The notes: a model not told the origin generated them from the letters alone. 64,000 nt of DNA from Candidatus Alloclostridium intestinigallinarum (GCA_904382605.1 CAJFJA010000003.1:62001-126000); one strand, 5' to 3'. Positions 5,326 to 62,780 are shown, counted from the stretch's first letter. Translations and numbers: made by a program.

Positions 5326-6354
5326 ATGTTAAAGAAAGTAAAGACGCTGCTTTCTTCAGAGGAAGTCAAGCAGTTCACCCCGGTAAGCGAAAAGCTGCGT
5401 GCAATCAAGGAAGACAGGGACAGACAGGCGGAAGCCATACTGACGGGCGCGGACAAGCGCAAGATGCTTATCATCGGTCCGTGTTCCGCGGACAACGAGG
5501 ACGCCGTGTGCGATTACGTCGCGCGCCTTGCAAAGGTGGCGGACGAGGTAAAGGATAAGTTCCTTATCATTCCGCGCATATACACAAACAAGCCGCGCAC
5601 CCGCGGCGAGGGATATAAGGGCATTTTGCACAATCCCGACCCCCACAACTCCGCCACGGACATCCAGGCGGGTATTATCGCGCTCAGAAAAATGCACATA
5701 CGCGCCATATCCGAAAGCGGACTTTCCAGCGCGGACGAAATGCTTTACCCCGACAACCACGTGTATCTGGACGACCTTCTTACCTACGTGGCTATCGGCG
5801 CAAGGAGCACGGAAGACCAGCAGCACAGGCTTGTGGCGAGCGGCATAGACCTGCCCGCGGGCTTCAAGAACCCCATGAACGGAAGCGTGCGCGTGACGAT
5901 AAATTCCATATACGCCGCGCAGATTCCCAACGAATTCAAGTACAGGCAGTACCAGGTAAAGACAGAGGGCAACCCGTACGCGCATATGATATTGCGCGGC
6001 GGCGTGGACGTGTACAACAACAACTTCCCCAACTACCATTACGAGGACGTCACGAACGCCATCGAGCTTTACGAGGCGAGCGGACTGAAAAATCCCGCCA
6101 TTATAATAGACACCAACCACTCCAACAGCGGCAAGAAGTATCTTGAACAGGTGCGTATCGCCAAGGAGATATTCACCAATATGCAGTGGTCGGAAAAAAT
6201 GCACGCCTACGTAAAGGGACTTCTGATAGAAAGCTACATACAGGACGGCGCGCAGCCCGTCACAGGCAACGAGTACGGCAAGTCCGTGACCGACGCCTGC
6301 CTGGGGTGGGATAAAACTTATCGCCTCATCTGCGATTTGGCTAGTATGTTATAG
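5326..6354 (+). CDS. aroF: 3-deoxy-7-phosphoheptulonate synthase (type I, AroG-like)
   Basis: DAHP synthase condenses phosphoenolpyruvate with erythrose 4-phosphate, the first step of the shikimate pathway to aromatic amino acids. At 342 residues it matches the type I-alpha family. GPCSADNED, a KPRT-containing loop with GYKG, and a late DTNHSNSGKK segment are the active-site signatures. The ATG is 1 nt after the copA stop, so translation is probably coupled although the functions are unrelated. A terminator follows directly. Whether it is inhibited by Phe, Tyr or Trp cannot be judged here; the choice of symbol aroF rather than aroG is conventional. Confidence 0.92.
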   Translation: MLKKVKTLLSSEEVKQFTPVSEKLRAIKEDRDRQAEAILTGADKRKMLIIGPCSADNEDAVCDYVARLAKVADEVKDKFLIIPRIYTNKPRTRGEGYKGILHNPDPHNSATDIQAGIIALRKMHIRAISESGLSSADEMLYPDNHVYLDDLLTYVAIGARSTEDQQHRLVASGIDLPAGFKNPMNGSVRVTINSIYAAQIPNEFKYRQYQVKTEGNPYAHMILRGGVDVYNNNFPNYHYEDVTNAIELYEASGLKNPAIIIDTNHSNSGKKYLEQVRIAKEIFTNMQWSEKMHAYVKGLLIESYIQDGAQPVTGNEYGKSVTDACLGWDKTYRLICDLASML

Positions 6355-11608: not shown

Positions 11609-11637
11609 TTGACAATTCGCTGTGCGGCATATATAAT
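11609..11637 (+). promoter_or_regulatory. Consensus promoter of the PD-(D/E)XK gene
   Basis: TTGACA (11609-11614), 17 bp, TATAAT (11632-11637). The AT-rich stretch 11363-11608 before it shows no gene or repeat I can recognise. Confidence 0.8.
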
Positions 11638-11664
11638 TAAGTAAATTACAAATGAGGTATAACT

Positions 11665-12801
11665 ATGTCTGAAGGAGATTTGGAGCTAATTAAAAGCATA
11701 GCGGATAACGACAATGATTTTGGCGGGCTTAACGAGAATGCTTCATTTTTAGAGGTTATACGTAAAACATACGAAGAGACCTTTATTTCGCGTATGCTCG
11801 CCTATACGTTTGAAAAAGATGAGGAACTTGTCGGGAAGTTTATAGAATTCGCAGGAGAGCATTCTTCCTGTATAGTAAATAAAACTGTCAGGTGTGAAAA
11901 AGTTGTGCCCGGAGGCAGAATAGATATTTTTGTCGAGGCGCAGGACAGTTCGGGGAAGAGATATACCATTACCATTGAAAATAAGATAAACAGCAAAGAA
12001 CACGGAGACCAGACGGATTGTTATTATAATTATGTAAACCGATATTACGGTGATTGTAAAAATATGTACTTTTATTTGACGCCGGAATATAATTGCAACG
12101 GGTGCAAGAGTGAATGGTTCAGACCGATAACTTACAAGCAACTATATTTGACTATAGGGAATAACGACGACGATAAAGTTGCCGATTTCAAAAAGCACAT
12201 AAAAAAATATTTTTGCGGAGAAAAAATAAGAATGAAAGAAGTGCATAAAAAAATACTTGAAAATTATGGAAACTTAAAAAGGTTGATGTCGGAAGCTGAC
12301 GAAGCATATGAAGCTGAAAAGCAACAGCTTTTTTCCACAATAAAAACCAAATTGGGTGTTGACGAAAAGGGCTGGAAAACGCAAGTGAAGCTAGAGCAGT
12401 CATTGGGAGACAGTTATAGAATATATAAGGAAAATTGGTATCACAATGACGATGATAAAACAAAAACGTTTTATTTCTATGCGGAATTGCTATACGTGGA
12501 TAATAATCCGAATGAAATATGTGTCCAGGGAACGGTAAAAACATACGGACATGATAAGAAAAATATCAGGTTTGTAAAGTTTATCCAGGATGAGCAGTAT
12601 GCGCAACAATATGTTATAAATAAAGGTTTGTTTTATATATTATATCAGGAACCATTTTCTTCCCAAACGGACATGTATTCAGACGAGTGGAAGAGTGAGT
12701 TGGAGAAATTTGCAATAGAAAATATCGGTAAAGCAATAGAAAAAACAGACCAAGTGTTTAAGGAGTTTAATGAATATATAAAGCAGTCGGAAAAAGCCTG
12801 A
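11665..12801 (+). CDS. PD-(D/E)XK nuclease-superfamily protein
   Basis: A 378-residue protein of the PDDEXK_4-like type. The catalytic core is visible as GRIDIFVE (Asp87) and IENKI (Glu105, Lys107), followed by QTDCYYNYV. The C-terminal half is charged and not recognised. Such proteins are often orphan genes in accessory DNA and several belong to restriction or phage-defence loci, but no partner gene lies next to it, so its role is open. The AT-rich codon use contrasts with both neighbours and suggests recent transfer. It has its own promoter and a terminator, forming a one-gene cassette. ATG follows AATGAGG. Confidence 0.75.
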   Translation: MSEGDLELIKSIADNDNDFGGLNENASFLEVIRKTYEETFISRMLAYTFEKDEELVGKFIEFAGEHSSCIVNKTVRCEKVVPGGRIDIFVEAQDSSGKRYTITIENKINSKEHGDQTDCYYNYVNRYYGDCKNMYFYLTPEYNCNGCKSEWFRPITYKQLYLTIGNNDDDKVADFKKHIKKYFCGEKIRMKEVHKKILENYGNLKRLMSEADEAYEAEKQQLFSTIKTKLGVDEKGWKTQVKLEQSLGDSYRIYKENWYHNDDDKTKTFYFYAELLYVDNNPNEICVQGTVKTYGHDKKNIRFVKFIQDEQYAQQYVINKGLFYILYQEPFSSQTDMYSDEWKSELEKFAIENIGKAIEKTDQVFKEFNEYIKQSEKA

Positions 12802-25468: not shown

Positions 25469-26251
25469 ATGAAAGTAGAAAAATATCGGGTATTAGGAGA
25501 ATTAATTGAGACAAATAAAAGACAATTTGTCATACCTGTATACCAAAGAAATTATGATTGGAGAAAAGATAATTGTAAGACATTATTTGACGATATTGTA
25601 AACGCTGTTGTAATGGACAGACTACATTTTGTCGGTTCGATTGTTTATGTAGATCAAGGGGAAGAGAATAAAATATATCGTTACCTAATAATTGATGGGC
25701 AACAACGCATAACTACTATTTTTCTTTTGCTTAAGTCATTATACGATGTAAGCGATGATGTAAATCTAAAAAATGAAATAAATAGTATGCTATTCAATAT
25801 AGATAGGTTTAACAATTTGAAGTTAACTGATCAAAACAAAATAAAACTTAAGCCGATTAAATCAGATAATGAGCAATTTATCCTGTTAATGAAAGGTGAA
25901 GTTGAGGCTATGAATAAATCATCAAATATTTATAGTAATTATGAATATTTAAAATCGCTTATTCGTAAAACAGTGCAGGGTGGAGAAGTAAGTTGTGAAG
26001 ATATTCTTGCAGGACTAAAGATGCTAACATCTGCAGTAATTATTCTTGATCCAAAAGAAGATAATCCGCAGGGCGTATTTGAGTCAATCAATTCTACCGG
26101 GCTTGAATTATCGTTGGCTGATTTAATAAGAAATTTTGTGTTAATGACAGATAAGGATCAAGAGAGATTGTTTGAGCAATATTGGTTAAAAATAGAACAG
26201 AATATTACTCTGCAGAATGTTTTTATGGACACAATTATGTCTTGCGTTTAA
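25469..26251 (+). pseudogene. Truncated DUF262 (GmrSD N-terminal-like) protein
   Basis: The 260 residues are the N-terminal part of a DUF262 protein, the nucleotide-hydrolysing half of GmrSD-type modification-dependent restriction enzymes. Landmarks are IPVYQRNYDW, LIIDGQQRITT, and VFESINSTGLELSLADLIRNF. Full-length relatives continue into a DUF1524 (HNH nuclease) domain, which is missing: homology ends after NITLQNV, and a short unrelated tail and stop follow. AT-rich codon use marks transferred DNA. ATG follows AAGAGG. It could still be expressed, but as a restriction enzyme it is broken. A possible far fragment lies at 29679-30068. Confidence 0.75.
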
Positions 26252-26469
26252 TCATAGATCTGTGTCCGCTTGACCTTCCGTTTCACAATTTCCTTGATCA
26301 GCTGCCCGTCTTCCGAATAGACGCTGCCGCCCGATACGCAACACATTCGAAGATATTTCAGAAGTTCCTTTTTGACTCGTGCACGATCGTAATCTCTATG
26401 GTTTTTGTCATACCATTTTTTCGATGATCTTCGCCCAATCCACAAATCAGGAACACCCCGCCTACGCTT

Positions 26470-26807
26470 TGATCCTTATCCTTGCAACACGCAAAACGAA
26501 GTGCGATTATCTGCATTATCGCCAAGAGCCTAGCAAACCTGAAACACGGAGGCGAGATGCTACATCATTGTGTGGGGCGAATGAACTACGACCAGCCATG
26601 CTACGCGAGGAATCGCTTATCTTCTTTATACGCAACATACAGGAACCGGACACTCCGTTCGTAACGGTCGAATACTCCTTGAAGAACATGAAAATCCTGC
26701 AATGTTACGGAGAACATGACAACAAGCCGAACAAAGATGTATTGCATTATGTCAACAAAGTATGGCTGCCTTATGCCAACAAAATACTCAAACGAATTGC
26801 CGCATAG
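26470..26807 (+). pseudogene. PcfJ-like protein remnant with frameshift
   Basis: Pieces of a PcfJ-like protein, found on conjugative elements, in two frames. One frame carries IICIIAKSLANLKHGGEMLHHCVG; the other carries IFFIRNIQEPDTPFVTVEYS and continues to the stop at 26807. In intact relatives these parts are continuous, so at least one frameshift is present near 26600-26625, and the N-terminal part is missing. The following small gene (26820) is a usual neighbour of such proteins as I recall. It indicates that the island descends from an integrative element. Confidence 0.6.
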
Positions 26808-27131: not shown

Positions 27132-27160
27132 TTGACATGTGTTTATTAAAGTGGTATAAT
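27132..27160 (+). promoter_or_regulatory. Perfect consensus promoter of the RiPP-like cluster
   Basis: TTGACA (27132-27137), 17 bp, TATAAT (27155-27160) preceded by GTGG. It lies 30 nt before the precursor ATG and should be strong and constitutive. Confidence 0.9.
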
Positions 27161-27190
27161 AAAGAAAATATTTTGTTGGGAGAACTCCAT

Positions 27191-27361
27191 ATGAAAGCAA
27201 TAGAATTAAAACCTGTTGAAGCTATGCAAATTGTTGCATCAAAATGCAATTGTGGTGCATGTAATTGTAACTGCGGTGCTGGTTCCGCTTGCATGAATAA
27301 ATGCATGTCAGGAGAAACAGTTGATTACAAGGATGCTCTTAAAGCCGTTTATTCCAAATAA
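27191..27361 (+). CDS. Cys-rich RiPP precursor peptide candidate
   Basis: 56 residues. Residues 1-18 form a leader-like stretch (MKAIELKPVEAMQIVASK); residues 19-38 hold all seven cysteines (19, 21, 24, 26, 28, 34, 38), with the inner text CNCGACNCNCGAGSAC; residues 39-56 form a Cys-free follower rich in charged residues. NCGA occurs twice. ATG follows GGGAG, 30 nt behind a perfect promoter. The next gene is a radical SAM/SPASM enzyme of the type that cross-links such peptides, often by thioether bonds. Comparable classes are ranthipeptides (SCIFF) and the seven-Cys peptides matured by CcpM-like enzymes; membership was not tested. No export or protease gene is visible. Confidence 0.75.
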   Translation: MKAIELKPVEAMQIVASKCNCGACNCNCGAGSACMNKCMSGETVDYKDALKAVYSK

Positions 27362-27378
27362 CTGTGGAATTGTACAAA

Positions 27379-27410
27379 ATTACTGCCGGATCAAATGGCA
27401 GTAATTTTTG
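27379..27410 (+). terminator. Attenuating hairpin between precursor and maturase
   Basis: ATTACTGCC (27379-27387) pairs perfectly with GGCAGTAAT (27397-27405), followed by TTTTGTTT. Its position suggests abundant precursor transcript with partial read-through into the enzyme gene, a common RiPP arrangement. Confidence 0.8.
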
Positions 27411-27423
27411 TTTGAGGTTTCTT

Positions 27424-28737
27424 ATGTTATCTAAATTTTGTTTTTTTTATAAAACATCAAAAGAATATTACATCGTATACAATAGCTTATTGTTTGAGCC
27501 TGTTATCATCAATACGTGTGAATACCTTAATTTAAAAAAGGGCAATTTAGAGTCATTTTCTGATGAAGAAATTGCTTTATTAAAACAAAAAGGTATTTTA
27601 ATAAAAGAAGAATCAATCGATGATCAGGCTGTTTTAAAATTAAAACAACATGTCAATTCTGCCATACAAGAAGGCATCTCTTTAATATATATAATTCCAA
27701 CAAACATCTGTAATTGGGCTTGTAAATATTGTTTTATAGGGCAACTTAATAATGCAAAAATAGAAATATCAAAATACACTATTGATAAAATTATAGATGA
27801 ATATTACAATCATTTGCTTAATCAGGGAAGAACTAGCGCAACCATAGTTTTCTATGGCGGTGAACCCCTGATTGCTTTTGATAAAATTAAATATGCCGTA
27901 GAATATTGCTATAAATATACTCAAATTCAATGGGATTTCGCTATTGTTACAAATCTAACATTATTAACGGAAGAAATTGTAAGTTTTTTAGAAAAATATA
28001 ATATTTCTGTCGGTGTTTCTATAGATGGACCTAAGGCGACAAACGATGTTAATAGAATTTTTAAAAATAGCACTCGCAGCGTTTATGACTGCGTAATGGA
28101 TAAAATTAAATTATTAAAGTCACATAAAATAAATATAGGATTATCAATTACTATTACAAATGAACTGCTAGATGATGCTGGTTTTTTATATTGGCTAAAA
28201 GATTTGGATGTTAAAGACATAAACTACAATTTGATGCATTTCACACACAAAACTAACGACTGGGGGGAATATTATAGGAAAGCTAGCGAATTTTTATTTA
28301 AATCGCATGAGTTTCTATTTCCTTATGGCATTGTAGATGATCGAATTCAACGCAAAATAAGAGCATTTGGCGCAAGAGAATTTAAATATAATGATTGCGG
28401 TGCTATAGGAGGGCATCAGTTATGTTTTTCCCCTAATGGAGATATTTCTGTTTGTCATGGTCTTTGGAATTCTACAGATCAAAAATGTGGCAATATTCTT
28501 TATAACTCTTTTGAAGATATACTTCAAAAATCGACATTCCGCAAATGGCAAAACAATCTCACTGTTAACAAAGAGCAATGCATAAATTGTCCAGCAATTT
28601 ATATTTGTGGTGGAGGATGCGCTATGCAAAGTCGAGATTTGTTCGGTGATTTTACTTGCATAGATGAGGCTTTTTGTATCCATACAAAAATCACATTAGA
28701 AAAATTGTTGGATAATCTTGTGAGAGACAAAACATGA
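27424..28737 (+). CDS. Radical SAM/SPASM peptide maturase
   Basis: 437 residues. Residues 1-75 resemble a small winged-helix peptide-binding (RRE/PqqD-like) domain. The radical SAM domain has the 4Fe-4S site CNWACKYC (Cys96, Cys100, Cys103), FYGGEPL and VSIDGP. The C-terminal SPASM domain, with auxiliary clusters, shows CGAIGGHQLCFSPNGDISVC, CINCPAIYICGGGC and closing cysteines. It probably installs cross-links in the Cys-rich peptide upstream; the bond type is unknown. ATG 27424 was chosen because an upstream in-frame start would lie before the attenuator hairpin. AT-rich codon use, like the rest of the island. Overlaps the next gene by 4 nt (ATGA). Confidence 0.88.
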   Translation: MLSKFCFFYKTSKEYYIVYNSLLFEPVIINTCEYLNLKKGNLESFSDEEIALLKQKGILIKEESIDDQAVLKLKQHVNSAIQEGISLIYIIPTNICNWACKYCFIGQLNNAKIEISKYTIDKIIDEYYNHLLNQGRTSATIVFYGGEPLIAFDKIKYAVEYCYKYTQIQWDFAIVTNLTLLTEEIVSFLEKYNISVGVSIDGPKATNDVNRIFKNSTRSVYDCVMDKIKLLKSHKINIGLSITITNELLDDAGFLYWLKDLDVKDINYNLMHFTHKTNDWGEYYRKASEFLFKSHEFLFPYGIVDDRIQRKIRAFGAREFKYNDCGAIGGHQLCFSPNGDISVCHGLWNSTDQKCGNILYNSFEDILQKSTFRKWQNNLTVNKEQCINCPAIYICGGGCAMQSRDLFGDFTCIDEAFCIHTKITLEKLLDNLVRDKT

Positions 28738-29597
28738 AAACAAAAAGAGCGTTACTGTTTGATTTATTGGCTAAAAACATCTCACTATTGAGGTGTCCAA
28801 TATGCATGTCTGAGCTAAGCTATAATAACGATAGTCTCATTTGTAGCAAGCGACATTTATTTGATATATCAAAAAAAGGTACTGTTTTACTACATAAAAA
28901 GTACCAAAAGAAAATTGATGGCATTTATACTAAAGAATTATTTGAAAACCGTAGATTTTTTATTAAGGCTGGATTTTATACGGAAATTTATAATTATATT
29001 AGTGATTTAATTTTTGGAAACAGCAACAATCCAAAAATTCTGGATTTAGGATCTGGCGAATGTTCACACTTGCAAAGAATTAAAAATAATAGGGATATTA
29101 CAGCAATAGGTATTGATTTATCATACGATGCCATAAATTTGGCTACTGATTATCTCGTTGATGGCATATTGCCTATTTGTTGTGATTTATTTAATTTGCC
29201 GTTTAAAAATAAAGTATTCGATGTTGTATTAAATTTCTTGTCTCCAATAAACTCTTTTGAGGTAGGTCGAATATTGAAAGATGATGGAATTATAATTAAA
29301 GTAATTCCTACAAAAAACTATTTAAAGGAATTGCGCTTATATTTAGGATTCCGAGAATATTCAAAAGAGGAAGAAATTCTATCAAATTTACAAGAGCATT
29401 ATTCGATTACCTCTATTGAAAGAATCGAAAATATAAAACCTTTAACTTTAGAAACTGTCAATTCTTTATTCTATATGACCCCAATGACAAATCACAATGA
29501 AAATATTATTAAAAGTATAAATAATGCAAATTTCGATCAAATCACTATTTCATTAGACATTGTCTTGTTGAGGAAAAAGCATATTCAAGTCCAATAA
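28734..29597 (+). CDS. RlmA/TlrB-like methyltransferase with zinc ribbon
   Basis: 287 residues. The N-terminal zinc ribbon has Cys21, Cys24, Cys37 and His41, the same spacing as RlmA as I know it (3, 13, 4 residues), followed by a class I SAM domain with ILDLGSGE. RlmA enzymes methylate N1 of a guanine in 23S rRNA; the relative TlrB protects its host from tylosin. Here the gene overlaps the radical SAM gene (ATGA) and belongs to the RiPP-like cluster. It could give self-resistance by rRNA methylation, or methylate the peptide; both are inference. Similarity in the C-terminal half was judged weak by eye. Confidence 0.75.
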   Translation: MKTKRALLFDLLAKNISLLRCPICMSELSYNNDSLICSKRHLFDISKKGTVLLHKKYQKKIDGIYTKELFENRRFFIKAGFYTEIYNYISDLIFGNSNNPKILDLGSGECSHLQRIKNNRDITAIGIDLSYDAINLATDYLVDGILPICCDLFNLPFKNKVFDVVLNFLSPINSFEVGRILKDDGIIIKVIPTKNYLKELRLYLGFREYSKEEEILSNLQEHYSITSIERIENIKPLTLETVNSLFYMTPMTNHNENIIKSINNANFDQITISLDIVLLRKKHIQVQ

Positions 29598-30217: not shown

Positions 30218-30481
30218 TTATATATCGCTCAATCCCAATAAATAATCGGAAGAAACGTTCAGAAATTTGCTTATCTTGGCTATTTGCGTAGCTTTCGGCT
30301 CGCTTATGCCGTCACACCAATTGCAAACCGTCTGTTTGGAAAGCCCGCAACCTTTTGCCAGGGCATATTTGGTTATGCGCTTCGATTGCAACTCGTAATT
30401 CAGGCGTGTCAAGTGGTACTTGACAAGATTGTTTTCGGCAGTGAAGATAAATAAGCACGTACGATAGTAACTGACAACCAT
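30218..30481 (-). CDS. XRE-family helix-turn-helix regulator
   Basis: A small Cro/C1-type DNA-binding protein: YELQSKRITKYALAKGCGLSKQTVCNWCDGISEP is the helix-turn-helix, followed by ISKFLNVSSDYLLGLSD, the usual end of the domain. The start is uncertain. ATG 30481 gives 87 residues but lacks a clear ribosome-binding site, and its first 30 residues run through a copy of the TGTCAAG...CTTGACA palindrome, as if that repeat had replaced the native start. A second copy lies just upstream. The palindromes might be its own operators. AT-rich; last gene of the island. The 149 bp before it, down to 30069, show no gene. Confidence 0.65.
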   Translation of the reverse strand: MVVSYYRTCLFIFTAENNLVKYHLTRLNYELQSKRITKYALAKGCGLSKQTVCNWCDGISEPKATQIAKISKFLNVSSDYLLGLSDI

Positions 30482-30527
30482 ATTTTGACATAGCGCTATG
30501 AATAGGCATGTCAAGTAGTACTTGACA
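30407..30527. repeat. Two TGTCAAG palindromes and CATAGCGCTATG
   Basis: TGTCAAGTGGTACTTGACA (30407-30425) and TGTCAAGTAGTACTTGACA (30509-30527) flank the perfect palindrome CATAGCGCTATG (30489-30500). The first lies inside the reading frame of the XRE gene, the second upstream. Same family as the array at 34.4 kb. Confidence 0.8.
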
Positions 30528-30580
30528 GCGGCGGCTCGCCGCCAAGGCGGTTAAGGGGGCGTTCTACACTCCCGAATGGG
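30528..30580. repeat. GC-rich hairpin module
   Basis: GCGGCGGCTCGCCGCC followed by AAGGCGGTTAAGGGGGCG and a degenerate second hairpin (CGTTCTACACTCCCG). Same family as the modules near 6.7, 9.0, 35 and 61-62 kb. Confidence 0.65.
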
Positions 30581-34386: not shown

Positions 34387-34730
34387 GAGTTTTAACAGGT
34401 TTGTCAAGTACTGCTTGACAAGGGTATTTTTGTTCCACAGTTTTAACAGTCTTGTCAAGTACCACTTGACGCGCTATTTTTTGTTAAAAGTTTTAATAGT
34501 GTTGTCAGGTACTGCTTGACACGCTACTTTTTGTTAAAAGTTTTAACAGGCTTGTCAGGTACTGCTTGACAAGGGTATTTTTTGTCACAGAGTTTTAACA
34601 GTCTTGTCAGGTACTACTTGACAAGAATATTTTTGTTGCACAGTTTTGACAGTCTTGTCAAGTACCACTTGACACGCTACTTTTTGTTAAAAGTTTTAAC
34701 AGTCTTGTCAGGTACTACTTGACAAGATTA
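34387..34730. repeat. Seven tandem ~50-bp repeats, each with a 19-bp palindrome
   Basis: Palindromes of the form TGTCARGTACYRCTTGACA begin at 34402, 34453, 34503, 34553, 34605, 34656 and 34706, i.e. every 50-52 bp. They are linked by AGTTTTAACAG and TATTTTTTGTT-like text. Both arms are conserved; changes sit mostly in the centre or create G-T pairs. It is not CRISPR: the intervening text is repeated too, and no cas gene is present. Confidence 0.9.
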
Positions 34731-34828
34731 TTTTTGATAGTAAGTAAAATGGTAATCAAGTAAAAAGCATTACGGAGAGGTACACCGCAATACTTTTTTT
34801 GACACTTCAAGGCATGACCGGGGGGGCG

Positions 34829-35395
34829 GCGGCTCGCCGCTGTCAAGTACTGCTTGACAAGGTTATTCTTGATACTAAGTAAGACAGACTTGTCAGATAT
34901 TACTTGACAAGATTGTTATTGATGGTAAGAATGTTGCTTCACGGCGGTTAAGGGGTGGAGCGTCCCACGCTCCCTTCAAGGTATGACCGGGGGCGGCGGC
35001 TCGCCGCTGTCAGGTACTACTTGACAAGAGTATTTTTGATAGTAAGTAAAACAGGCTTGTCAAGTACTGCTTGACAAGGTTATTCTTGATACTAAGTAAG
35101 ACAGACTTGCCAGATACTACTTGACAAGAGTATTTTTGATAGTAAAAATGTTTCTTCGCAACGGTTAAGGGGTGGAGCGTCCCACGCTCCCTTCAAGGTA
35201 TGACCGGGTGCGGCGGCTCGCCGCTGTCAGGTACTACTTGACAAGATTATCTTTGACGCTAAGTAACACAGGCTTGTGGGGTTTTGCTTCGCTTGTATTT
35301 ACAATAAAAGCGTTACGGAGAAAGCAAAATCTGTCTTTCCGCATTGTTACTTCACGGCGGTTAAGGGATGCAACGTCCTACGTTGCCGGCTCGCC
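34829..35395. repeat. Mosaic of GC hairpin modules and TGTCARG palindromes
   Basis: Palindromes begin at 34841, 34891, 35008, 35058, 35108 and 35225. GGCGGCTCGCCGC hairpins lie near 34830, 34995 and 35213. GGAGCGTCCCACGCTCC hairpins lie at 34955 and 35171. A variant GCAACG-TCCTA-CGTTGC (35370-35386), with both arms changed in a matching way, overlaps the end of the YccF-like gene. No gene was seen in 34342-35377. Confidence 0.85.
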
Positions 35396-51982: not shown

Positions 51983-53362
51983 ATGGCGCGGCCTTACGGT
52001 GAAGGAATAGTATTCAATATACTCATGAAAGTGATATACATTGCCTATCTGGCGATGTATATGGCTTACGCCGTGCTGAACTATATCGCAGAAACGGGTA
52101 ACGACCTTGTCAACTTCATAGTCATTTCCTTTATCTCCGTTTCCATAGTCATTTTCATCATAGCAAACGTAATGGACTGGGTGTACAAGAACGCCGACGC
52201 GCGCTCCAAGATAAAGGTGCGGCTGCACACCTTGCGCAACGTGTTCAAAATAATCAAGGTGGGCGTAACCATTCTGGTTCTTGCCCAGACGATTACCGAC
52301 GACAGTTGGAACGCGCTGACCATAACCATGCTCGTAATATCCCTGCCTACCAGCCTTCTCTGGCTGTTGGGCGAATATATCTACGTCGCGGTAAAGGGGA
52401 TATTCCACCGCGGCGGAAAAGCCCAGTCGGAAGATACCGACGAGGAATACGACGACATAAAGCGCGTAACGCCCGTGCACGATACCATTGAAAGGGTGAA
52501 GCAGTTTGCCGAATCCGAACTGATAGTCATGCGCCCGCACGAGGTGGATTACGATTCGGACGAGGAAGAGGACGTGGAGGACAGATACCTGGGTTACGAG
52601 GAGGACGACGACTATTCCTATCCGCCTTCGCCGCGAGCGGCCCTGCAGCCGTCGCATGGGGAGTATATTCCCGAAAGACGCGCATATCCGGAATACGAGG
52701 GAATATTCACCATAGAGGCGATGCCGATGACGGAAGACGCGCACGATTTCAGCGTGGAAGAATACGATATGAATGCCGTTCTCGGGAGCGGAAGCAAGGA
52801 ACAATGCGGCGGAGAAAACGCGGACGTTCCGCCTGCGGACGGCGGAAAACAGCGCGCTGAGGACGGAGATACGCCCGCGGAAGGGGGCGGCGCTTCCATG
52901 GCAGAGCCTGCGCCGCAGAACGGACAGATAAAAGTCGATGAAGAAACAACCGCGCAAACCGTGCCGGAAGATATTTTTGAAGATATGATACCCGGACAGG
53001 CGGCAGAAGGCGTTTCCGGAGAGGCGGTACCCGAACAGGTCGCGCAAGATAAGCCGGAAGAGTCTGCGCCCGAACAGGTCGCGCAAGATAAACCGGAAGA
53101 GTCTGCGCCCGTACAGGCGGCGGAAGATACGGCGGAAGAGATAGCCACCGTACAGGCGGCGGAAGATACGGCGGAAGAGATAGCGCCCGTGCAGGCGGCG
53201 GAAGATAAGGCGGAAGAGATAGCCACCGTGCAGGCGGCGGAAGATACGGCGGAAGAGATAGCCTCCGTACAGGCGGCGGAAGATAATTCCGGAGAGAGCG
53301 AGGAAGAGCCTGCTTTTGAACGTAAGTTAAATCAGACTGACGAAGATAAAGGGGAAGAGTAG
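51983..53362 (+). CDS. Membrane protein with long acidic repetitive tail
   Basis: 459 residues. Four hydrophobic helices lie in about residues 10-145; the rest is a very acidic, low-complexity cytoplasmic or surface tail (EEYDDIKR..., DYDSDEEEDVEDRY). The last third holds seven or so 13-residue repeats (EQVAQDKPEESAP, VQAAEDTAEEIAT and variants). No known domain was recognised. ATG 51983 was chosen because the -10 box just before it implies a transcript starting there. Function unknown. Confidence 0.7.
   Translation: MARPYGEGIVFNILMKVIYIAYLAMYMAYAVLNYIAETGNDLVNFIVISFISVSIVIFIIANVMDWVYKNADARSKIKVRLHTLRNVFKIIKVGVTILVLAQTITDDSWNALTITMLVISLPTSLLWLLGEYIYVAVKGIFHRGGKAQSEDTDEEYDDIKRVTPVHDTIERVKQFAESELIVMRPHEVDYDSDEEEDVEDRYLGYEEDDDYSYPPSPRAALQPSHGEYIPERRAYPEYEGIFTIEAMPMTEDAHDFSVEEYDMNAVLGSGSKEQCGGENADVPPADGGKQRAEDGDTPAEGGGASMAEPAPQNGQIKVDEETTAQTVPEDIFEDMIPGQAAEGVSGEAVPEQVAQDKPEESAPEQVAQDKPEESAPVQAAEDTAEEIATVQAAEDTAEEIAPVQAAEDKAEEIATVQAAEDTAEEIASVQAAEDNSGESEEEPAFERKLNQTDEDKGEE
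53035..53290 (+). repeat. 39-bp in-frame tandem repeats
   Basis: About six and a half units of 39 bp (13 codons) inside the preceding gene. The two first units (CAGGTCGCGCAAGATAA type) differ from the later ones (CAGGCGGCGGAAGATA type), which suggests local expansion. Copy number probably varies between strains. Confidence 0.85.
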
Positions 53363-56880: not shown

Positions 56881-57390
56881 AACCCGTCCCCGTGCCCGGA
56901 AAAATCCTTTGAGCGTGATCTTTCCGGCACCTTTGCGCAATACCTCGCTTGACGTAGCGCTGCTACGACTTCGCTCCGTATTGCGCAAATCTGCCCGAAA
57001 ACCTCTACGCTGAAAGGCTTTCCCCGAACCCGTGTACGGGTTCCGTCCCCGTGTCCGGCAAAATCCTTTGAGCGTGATCTTTCCGGCACCTTTGCGCAAT
57101 ACCTCGCTCGACGTAGCGCTGCTACGACTTCGCTCCGTATTGCGCAAATCTGTCCGAAAATCTCTACGCTGAAAGGCTTTCCCCGAACCCGTGTACGGGT
57201 TCCGTCCCCGTGCCCGGCGAAATCATTTGAGAGTGATCTTTCCGGCACCTTTGCGCAATACCTCGCTTGACGTAGCGCTGCTACGACTTCGCTCCGTATT
57301 GCGCAAATCTGCCCGAAAATCTCTGCGCTGAAAGGCTTTCGCCGAACCCGTGTACGGGTTCTGTCCCCGCGTCCGGCGAAATCATTTGAG
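56881..57390. repeat. Three tandem copies of the 160-bp hairpin element
   Basis: Units of about 160 bp begin near 56884, 57043 and 57203, with a fourth partial start at 57361. Each has the core TTTGCGCAATACCTCGCT, GACGTAGCGCTGCTACGAC, CGTATTGCGCAAATCTG, then ACGCTGAAAGGCTTTC, and they are joined by the palindrome GAACCCGTGTACGGGTTC. The outer arms (CCGTCCCCGTGCCCGG) are unlike those of the other copies. The array starts 3 nt after the transporter stop. No gene lies in 56879-57451. Confidence 0.9.
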
Positions 57391-57451
57391 CGCGGGAGAG
57401 GAGTATATATATTGTATTTAAGCCGGAAAACGGCGCAGATAAGGAGAAGAT

Positions 57452-60894: not shown

Positions 60895-62780
60895 TTCGGG
60901 AGCGTGGAACGCTCCGCCAATTGACCTCTTTGCAATATCATACTGTAAAACAAAGTTTGCGCTTCGCTATGGTTTTGACGGCTCTTGCTTGAGGCTCGGT
61001 TTTCCCTCTTTTTGCGGTCTGTTTATCAGGTAGCGCGCCGTCCGTTACCGCAAAAATTCACCCTTTCCGCCCTTACGGGAAAATCCGCACAGCGAATTTT
61101 AGAGGTTACGCTCGCAAAAGCGCGGTTTTGCTTCGCTTTTATTTACAATATAAAGCATTGCAGAGAAAAAAGTTTTTATATATTCTTATATAACGCAAAA
61201 TGTGAAAGTATCGTTTACCAAAATTCTTGGTATCGACATATATGGCAATTTTTATCAATCTGTCCACTATAGTGGACACTTCATTTATAAAAGAAAGTTA
61301 ACTAATATAAAGCAAAGTATTGCGGAGATATTAATTTTGAAATTCAGTTTTGCTACTTCAAAGAGTAATCAGCCTGCGGCGGCTCGCCGCGGTGGAGTGT
61401 CCCACGCTCCCGGTTCGCCGCTGTCCACTTTAGTGGACACTTTATTTATGAAAGTAAGTAAACAAGCCGATACCAAGATTTTTGGTAAAAGATAGTTTTC
61501 TATCCATAGAGAATAAATTAGAGACAAAGTATTGCGAAGAAAATAGATCTAAGATTTTCTTTTGATAATTCACGGCGGCTCGCTGCGGTGGAGCGCTACG
61601 CGCTCCCGACTCGCTGCTGTTAGTTACTACTTGACAAGATTATTCTTGATAGTAAGTAAGACAGGCTTGTCAGGTACTGCTTGACAAGAGTATTTTTGAC
61701 AGTAAGTAAGATAGATTCGTCAAGTACTGCTTGACAAGGTTATTTTTGATAGTAAGTAAAATGGTAATCAAATAAAAAGCATTACGGAGAAGAAAAGCCG
61801 TAACTTGGTGCAATGTTACTGCACGGCATAATCAGGGGTGGAGTGTCCCACGCTCCCGGCTCGCTGCGGTTTTGCTTCGCTCGTAATTACACTTGGCTGA
61901 TTATATAGTCATATAAAATACTCATCATAAATAGTCTGTCCACTAAAGTGGACACTTTATTTATGAAAGTAAGTAAACAAGCCGATACCAAGATTTTTGG
62001 TAAAAGATAGTTTTCTATCCATAGAGAATAAATTAAAGACAAAGTATTGCGAAGAAAATAGATCTAAGATTTTCTTTTGATAATTCACGGCGGTTAAGGG
62101 GTGGAGCGTCCCGCGCTCCCAAGATTTTTGGTAAAAGATAGTATTCTATCCGCAGATAACAAAAAACAGAGAATTGCGGAGAAAAAGGAGTGAATTTCAG
62201 TTTTGTCACTTTGGAATATAATCAGCCTGCGGCGGCTCGCCGCGGTGGAGTGTCCCACGCTCCCGGTTCGCCGCTGTCCACTTTAGTGGACACATAATTT
62301 ATGAAAGCAATTAAACAAGTTGATACCAAGATTTTTGGTAAAAGACAGTTTTCTAGCCGCGTTTTGCATTTTTTGCTATCAATCCTGCAAAATCTTTAAT
62401 ATACTCTCTTTTATAATTTTTCCCACATAAAATAAAGAGTCATCAATTTGATGACCCCTCAGGTGTTGAACGTTTGGGCTGCCTATACAGCCTTGCTGCC
62501 GCTGCTATGGCGGTGCCAAAATCAGGTTTGTCGGGCTGCCTGTTCAGCCTTGCTGCCGCTGCTATGGCGGTGCCAAAATTAGGTTTACTTATCAACGCAA
62601 TATAATTATATTCTTCACTTTTTTGAAAAGTCAAGCCTATGAGTACCATTTTTCTTGTAAATAAGAGAGTAAAAGTATTGCGGAAAACCTTGAAATTCAG
62701 TATTGGCGCTTTGAAATATGATCAGCCTGCGGCGGCTCGCCGCGGTGGAGCGTCACACGTTGCCTCTGCCGCATGCAAAC
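60895..62780. repeat. Repeat field: mosaic of palindromes and GC hairpin modules
   Basis: Almost 2 kb without a convincing gene. It contains four TGTCCACTNNAGTGGACA palindromes (61261, 61422, 61937, 62275), four full and one partial TACCAAGATTTTTGGTA-type palindromes (61216, 61471, 61986, 62119, 62324), three TGTCAAG...CTTGACA copies (61618, 61668, 61718), and GC hairpin modules near 60900, 61375, 61573, 61835, 62095, 62225 and 62725. The blocks recur in a similar order, for example AAAGTATTGCGAAGAAAATAG between them, so the field grew by repeated insertion or duplication. Confidence 0.8.
62477..62592. repeat. Tandem duplication of about 57 bp
   Basis: GGCTGCCTATACAGCCTTGC... and GGCTGCCTGTTCAGCCTTGC... 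share nearly all of about 57 bp, including GCTGCTATGGCGGTGCCAAA. Each has small internal hairpins (GGCTG/CAGCC, CCGC/GCGG). Confidence 0.7.

Follow-up and report, generated by a model that had tools for sequence, protein, structure and literature searches.

By sequence comparison, the nearest described relative of the cassette analysed here is the FibroRumin family, and not CcpM. FibroRumin peptides are so far known as database models alone (TIGR04135 for the precursor and TIGR04136 for the maturase), and a full-text search of one literature library found no paper naming these peptides or describing their function. Like our cassette, FibroRumin clusters are compact, sometimes plasmid-borne, and combine a small Cys-rich precursor containing a CXC..C.C.C core with a homologous SPASM maturase. 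In the canonical clusters (L009, L017, L018, L019, L020 and L022), the gene after the maturase codes for a UvrA-like ATPase, about 700 aa in length, found in clusters from several phyla (for example, L009 7388-9481, L018 7382-9532 and L020 7537-9672). A scan of these three ATPases at full length did not detect the UvrB-interaction domain PF17760, which is present in a housekeeping UvrA, that of L012. The same architecture, a UvrA-like protein without the UvrB-binding domain, is seen in Ecm16 and DrrC, which are self-resistance proteins against DNA-binding antibiotics (PMC10192343). No such ATPase is present in the cassette described here, in which an RlmA-like methyltransferase stands instead.

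Other well-described systems resemble single parts of this cassette. The target of RlmAII is N1 of G748, a nucleotide lining the peptide exit tunnel, and its methylation confers resistance to tylosin (PMC6851288). The self-resistance methyltransferases NHR and TSR (nosiheptide and thiostrepton) follow the logic that we propose below, a RiPP antibiotic whose producer is protected by 23S rRNA methylation (PMC4409310), but they involve 2'-O-methylation of A1067, no RlmA enzyme, no exit tunnel and thiopeptide chemistry (partly from PMC4409310). CteB/SCIFF, PapB and TigE share with our maturase the combination of an RRE-like domain, a radical SAM domain and a SPASM domain, but their precursors are of another kind, and the cut-offs of the SCIFF and PapB models lie far above the scores obtained here.

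The DNA that we analysed (the window: the whole stretch of 64,000 nucleotides, G000:C3:62001-126000, from the 1.80-Mb genome of a gut-type Clostridia bacterium) carries, all on the + strand, a promoter, a 56-aa peptide with seven cysteines, a radical SAM/SPASM maturase and an RlmA-like methyltransferase, in that order and, by a search of the genome, in a single copy. The promoter had been called perfect in an earlier sequence-only reading, and it is an exact match to the sigma-70 consensus TTGACA-N17-TATAAT at 27132-27160, a pattern found twice in the window against 0.02 occurrences expected from shuffling. The further exact match lies 28 bases 5' of an AT-rich orphan ORF of 378 aa (11609-12801), which sits between higher-GC genes and by eye has the look of a PD-(D/E)XK nuclease. 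The gap between precursor and maturase holds a putative intrinsic terminator/attenuator hairpin (about 27376-27409, + strand; -22.4 kcal/mol, z -4.2), which would be expected to favour the precursor over the enzymes. Genome G748, from a different family of the same order, contains a second version of this cassette (L010) in which the genes, their order, the promoter elements with identical spacing and the hairpin are all kept, the stem ACTGCC...GGCAGT-T5 being retained and the loop changed. The 2 versions are 88% identical in the precursor, 71% in the maturase and 63% in the methyltransferase. Since their DNA similarity spans about 27148 to 29497 and stops beyond, the three-gene unit is the conserved part. 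Judged by this recurrence the cassette is more than a product of chance, and its biosynthetic nature is well supported.

The precursor gene (27191-27361, + strand) codes for MKAIELKPVEAMQIVASKCNCGACNCNCGAGSACMNKCMSGETVDYKDALKAVYSK, which is built as originally described: a leader (residues 1-18), a core (residues 19-38) holding all seven cysteines at positions 19, 21, 24, 26, 28, 34 and 38, and a tail of 18 residues without Cys (residues 39-56) that ends in KAVYSK. Seven cysteines within 20 residues occur in this ORF only among the 285 window ORFs of 40-90 aa, the runner-up having 5. The sequence-only reading had staked itself on 2 points, conservation of the 56-aa frame and the presence of Cys-rich small ORFs beside homologous maturases, and both held up. 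The same frame is present in L010 (peptide identity 86-88%), and the 32 differences between the 2 genes fall 6, 2 and 24 at codon positions 1, 2 and 3, with dN of 0.073, dS of 1.71 and dN/dS of about 0.04. The kept frame, the excess of third-position differences and the low dN/dS mean that the ORF is coding and under strong purifying selection. Cys-rich small ORFs lie beside homologous maturases at 12 loci (L006, L009, L010, L012, L013, L015, L017-L020, L022 and L134), so a short, conserved, coding ORF next to the maturase, as expected of a RiPP precursor, is found in the relatives as well. The number seven did not survive as a class trait, since precursors in the clade have 5-8 cysteines in CXC/CXXC patterns. 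At L014, the A. provencensis locus, we found only a two-Cys candidate 3' of the maturase, and no precursor was found on the contigs of L011, where the cluster is at the contig edge, or L025. A common tail of the form (A/E)(V/I)YSK or IYRK recurs in three lineages (KAVYSK in the window, KEIYSK in L012 and TNIYRK in L013).

The maturase (27424-28737, + strand, 437 aa) and the methyltransferase follow the peptide as first reported, with the maturase start corrected to the ATG at 27424. The GTG at 27364 proposed by the mechanical ORF call lies upstream of the conserved terminator, and L010 shares the ATG, its maturase likewise starting with MLSK at the matching position. The protein matches PF04055 (64.5 bits) and PF13186 (26.9 bits), both above their cut-offs, and has the CX3CX2C motif as C96-X3-C100-X2-C103 and further conserved cysteines at C325, C344, C386, C389, C395, C399 and C418. 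Its AlphaFold (AF2) model (pLDDT 90) shows an N-terminal beta3-alpha3 domain as in RRE domains, and the best PDB fold matches, TigE (8vpo) and CteB (5wgg), are spanned over their full length. The motif, the SPASM cysteines and the RRE-like N-terminus are those of a radical SAM/SPASM RiPP maturase.

When all NCBIfam models were compared, the best for this maturase was FibroRumin TIGR04136 at 204.7 bits, below the cut-off of 400 bits that the control L018 clears at 902 bits; the relatives L006 and L010-L014 score 160-230 bits. TIGR04135 (cut-off 45 bits) did not hit the window peptide at E<=10, although it recovers the control peptides of L009, on a Campylobacter plasmid, at 54.9 and 62.0 bits. 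Both FibroRumin cut-offs thus place the cassette outside the family as modelled. Membership in the SCIFF maturases (TIGR03974, 96.8 bits against 425) and in the PapB ranthipeptide maturases (NF047865, 141.5 bits against 340) was rejected, as was membership in CcpM (TIGR04068, 112.6 bits against 500), which the sequence-only reading had considered among the nearest comparisons; that part of it gives way to FibroRumin, and its picture of a compact RiPP-like cassette in a mobile, eroded island stands. In the maturase tree, the enzymes of the window, L010, L011, L012, L013, L025, L006 and L014 form one clade (support 99/97) that is sister to the canonical FibroRumin enzymes, and we regard a RiPP cassette sister to FibroRumin as very probably the correct description. 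In addition to the exchanged neighbour gene, it differs from canonical clusters in encoding one precursor, with a YSK tail, where they encode several, with an acidic/W tail. Two maturase genes among the relatives are damaged: that of L025 (6818-8107) contains a transposase-like ORF on the opposite strand that disrupts it, and that of L134, in G1285, is frameshifted at about 7101, through assembly error or decay, next to an intact methyltransferase and precursor.

We propose that the cassette is a mobile three-gene RiPP operon from a sister clade of the FibroRumin family, in which the promoter would give abundant precursor mRNA and read-through of the attenuator smaller amounts of maturase and methyltransferase. 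Leader binding would be the task of the maturase's RRE-like domain, and the installation of cross-links in the Cys-rich core, most likely thioethers, that of its radical SAM and SPASM clusters. The methyltransferase would be an RlmAII-type 23S rRNA N1-guanine methyltransferase that, in advance, methylates nucleotide G748 or one close to it in the producer's helix-35 loop, part of the peptide exit tunnel, and this would shield the producer from its own product. Export and cleavage would fall to host enzymes; the three-gene cassette itself contains no exporter or protease gene. If the methyltransferase protects the producer's exit tunnel, then the product is predicted to be a translation inhibitor binding there. 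We consider it somewhat better than an even bet that the cassette makes a Cys-rich RiPP with ribosomal self-protection by the RlmA-like enzyme, the product being a candidate exit-tunnel-binding translation inhibitor.

The role of the methyltransferase had been left open by the sequence-only reading, and no other part of the cassette proved as informative. The gene (28734-29597, + strand, 287 aa) overlaps the maturase stop codon with its start (ATGA at 28734-28737) and codes for a class I methyltransferase with a zinc ribbon (PF21302, 35.4 bits against a cut-off of 27), whose best PDB match by sequence (1.4e-39) and by fold, the latter from a model of modest confidence (pLDDT 66), is RlmA(I), 1p91. 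The zinc ribbon, the SAM fold and retained invariant residues are those of the RlmA family, and the score against the RlmAI equivalog NF008300 (105.5 bits) is below its cut-off of 303. Two RlmA types occur in the window's order, and the tree groups the methyltransferases of the window, L010, L011, L013 and L025 as one clade within the type-2 RlmAs (100/99), a position that points to a putative RlmAII-type enzyme. With RlmAII and TlrB these enzymes share this nesting, the zinc ribbon, the SAM fold and the Y..LF..R and MTP motifs. They differ from them in forming a clade of their own on a long stem, beside a RiPP maturase in 5/5 genomes seen, and in several conserved positions: 26 of the 34 RlmA-conserved positions are kept, the zinc ribbon, R73 and the MTP motif among them, and 8 are changed, including Y50 of the GY motif. 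Given these 8 changes, the specificity of the cluster enzymes may have shifted.

The long stem and the changed positions would also suit an enzyme that acts on the cross-linked Cys-rich peptide, adding N-, C- or S-methyl groups, in which case the product need not act on the ribosome. Tailoring methyltransferases are present in many RiPP operons, and one RiPP methyltransferase, LahSB, ranks second among the PDB sequence matches of the window enzyme and also appears among its fold matches. In addition, L013 (1512-2267) and L025 (5238-5993) have, between maturase and RlmA-like gene, another class I methyltransferase of 251 aa, which resembles a tailoring enzyme more. We nevertheless think a tailoring role unlikely, since RlmA(I) is the better match by both sequence and fold, the enzyme retains the zinc ribbon and the majority of RlmA-specific positions, and the gene beside the maturase in G089 is an ordinary host rlmA with stand-alone orthologues in G050 and G216. 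An ordinary host rlmA in this place argues for rRNA as the substrate and hence for protection.

We searched nine genomes with clade maturases for every RlmA homologue, a small sample in which many of the genomes are MAGs, and in 7 (G000, G748, G089, G1285, G1461, G1463 and G1465) the sole RlmA homologue adjoins the maturase; G1462 and G1464 have no RlmA homologue. Across the order, any RlmA at E<=1e-30 was found in 50 of 297 genomes, and because the window's sampled congeners have none at this threshold, the methyltransferase must have arrived with the island. The G089 locus (L006) was set aside as support for the cluster-specific methyltransferase clade, because its enzyme belongs to the other type and is a host rlmA (77% identity to the solitary gene of G050), and it is used here as a separate observation. 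The two genomes run colinear as far as the stop codon of rlmA; at that point G089 contains 1.5 kb more, made up of the maturase and precursor only, a picture that either an insertion in G089 or a loss from G050 could explain. The G1285 maturase is close to that of G089 (71% over 373 residues) and the precursors are also related, but the G1285 rlmA is only 51% identical to that of G089 and lies in a different gene neighbourhood. The association with RlmA thus extends over at least 2 unrelated RlmA lineages.

The linkage could instead be an accident without functional meaning, with rlmA 3' ends acting as an insertion hot spot or the gene as a hitch-hiker. The insertion in G089 exactly at the rlmA stop codon, the frequency of rlmA in the order and the 2 clade members without RlmA would all fit this. 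It does not account well for a methyltransferase clade of its own inside the cassette in the window genome, G748 and Bacilli MAGs, for a methyltransferase that came with the island, or for gene orders that differ among loci (precursor-maturase-methyltransferase or methyltransferase-maturase-precursor), which a single hot spot would not be expected to produce, and we judge it improbable. RlmA genes are common housekeeping genes, and this counts against protection. Self-protection is also weakened by the absence of RlmA from 2 clade members, by the changed positions and by the second methyltransferase in L013 and L025. In L012, a genome without RlmA, the slot beside the clade maturase is taken by a GNAT acetyltransferase (5538-5993), and L014, likewise without RlmA, has an ABC transporter downstream of the maturase. 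Viral and phage collections gave distant SPASM proteins only and no RlmA-linked cassette, and a tblastn search of plasmids gave one true FibroRumin relative, on Campylobacter p16187MP2. None of the RlmA-like genes found on Bacillaceae plasmids was RiPP-linked; one adjoins a MATE efflux gene (L182, Lysinibacillus pMGMM7) and another, related gene adjoins an Msr-type ABC-F (macrolide/ribosome-protection) gene (L183, Priestia pBMV_1), a neighbour that speaks for a protective role.

The setting of the cassette bears on whether the product is toxic at all. It lies in an AT-rich island of 5.3 kb, flanked by a GNAT gene and pflB and extending from 25429 to about 30685, and in the congeners G001, G002 and G004 the site is empty, the GNAT gene being followed directly by the pflB upstream region. 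The island also carries, on the + strand, a passenger ORF with the GmrSD N-terminal domain (DUF262; 25469-26251, PF03235, 126 bits) and a PcfJ-like fragment (26379-26807, PF14284, 34.3 bits, profile positions 95-142), a remnant of a conjugative element, and the earlier description of a decaying, AT-rich mobile island is a fair one. Elsewhere in the window there is a 50-bp repeat family with dyads TGTCA(A/G)GTACT(G/A)CTTGACA in two distant clusters (34388-35277 and 61618-61759), a similar unit of which was seen by eye near the right edge of the island (about 30400-30550), as well as a 159-bp tandem repeat of 3.2 copies with 95% match (56884-57392) and a 39-bp tandem array of 6.6 copies (53030-53286). 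As has been suggested for some SCIFF-like or ranthipeptide systems, the peptide could be a Cys-rich signal or metal-binding peptide and no antibiotic, with the methyltransferase tuning translation. The CXC/CXXC spacing is metal-binding-like, and the lack of an exporter or protease in the cassette and of any paper on FibroRumin function in the library searched would agree. We hold this to be distinctly improbable, since the cassette is accessory, mobile and rare (the maturase was not found in any other searched genome of the window's family) and self-resistance-type genes co-occur with it or its cousins, so that a toxic product fits better than a housekeeping signal. The possibility that the 56-aa ORF and hairpin merely attenuate downstream resistance genes, as in the leader-peptide attenuation of B. 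subtilis tlrB (PMC6851288), which would suit a short ORF and terminator hairpin ahead of a TlrB/RlmA-like gene, is ruled out as its sole function, and is extremely remote as an account of the locus, because the Cys-rich ORF adjoins the maturase on its downstream side in L006, L012, L013 and L134, where no leader could act, dN/dS is 0.04 across the whole peptide and the intervening enzyme is a peptide maturase.

Ribosomal self-protection by the RlmA-like enzyme may be one case of a broader arrangement. UvrA-like and RlmA-like genes, two unrelated types of self-resistance, in one slot suggest that these peptides harm the cells that make them and act on different targets. One scaffold with swapped targets might then underlie all of these FibroRumin-like clusters, as Cys-rich radical SAM RiPP antibiotics with a matching self-resistance gene in each lineage, Ecm16/DrrC-like UvrA proteins going with DNA-acting products and RlmAII-like methyltransferases with exit-tunnel products, and the window representing the ribosomal branch. 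We regard this generalization as possible but doubtful. If it were true, the ribosomal branch would be a new chemical class of translation inhibitor, and the gene next door would reveal its target. The resistance-type genes in the slot give a direct, testable prediction of target, the exit tunnel here and DNA for the canonical clade. If the ribosomal self-protection proposed for the window is right, a radical SAM RiPP would join the short list of translation inhibitors against which rRNA methylation protects, and a marker for resistance-guided mining would be gained.
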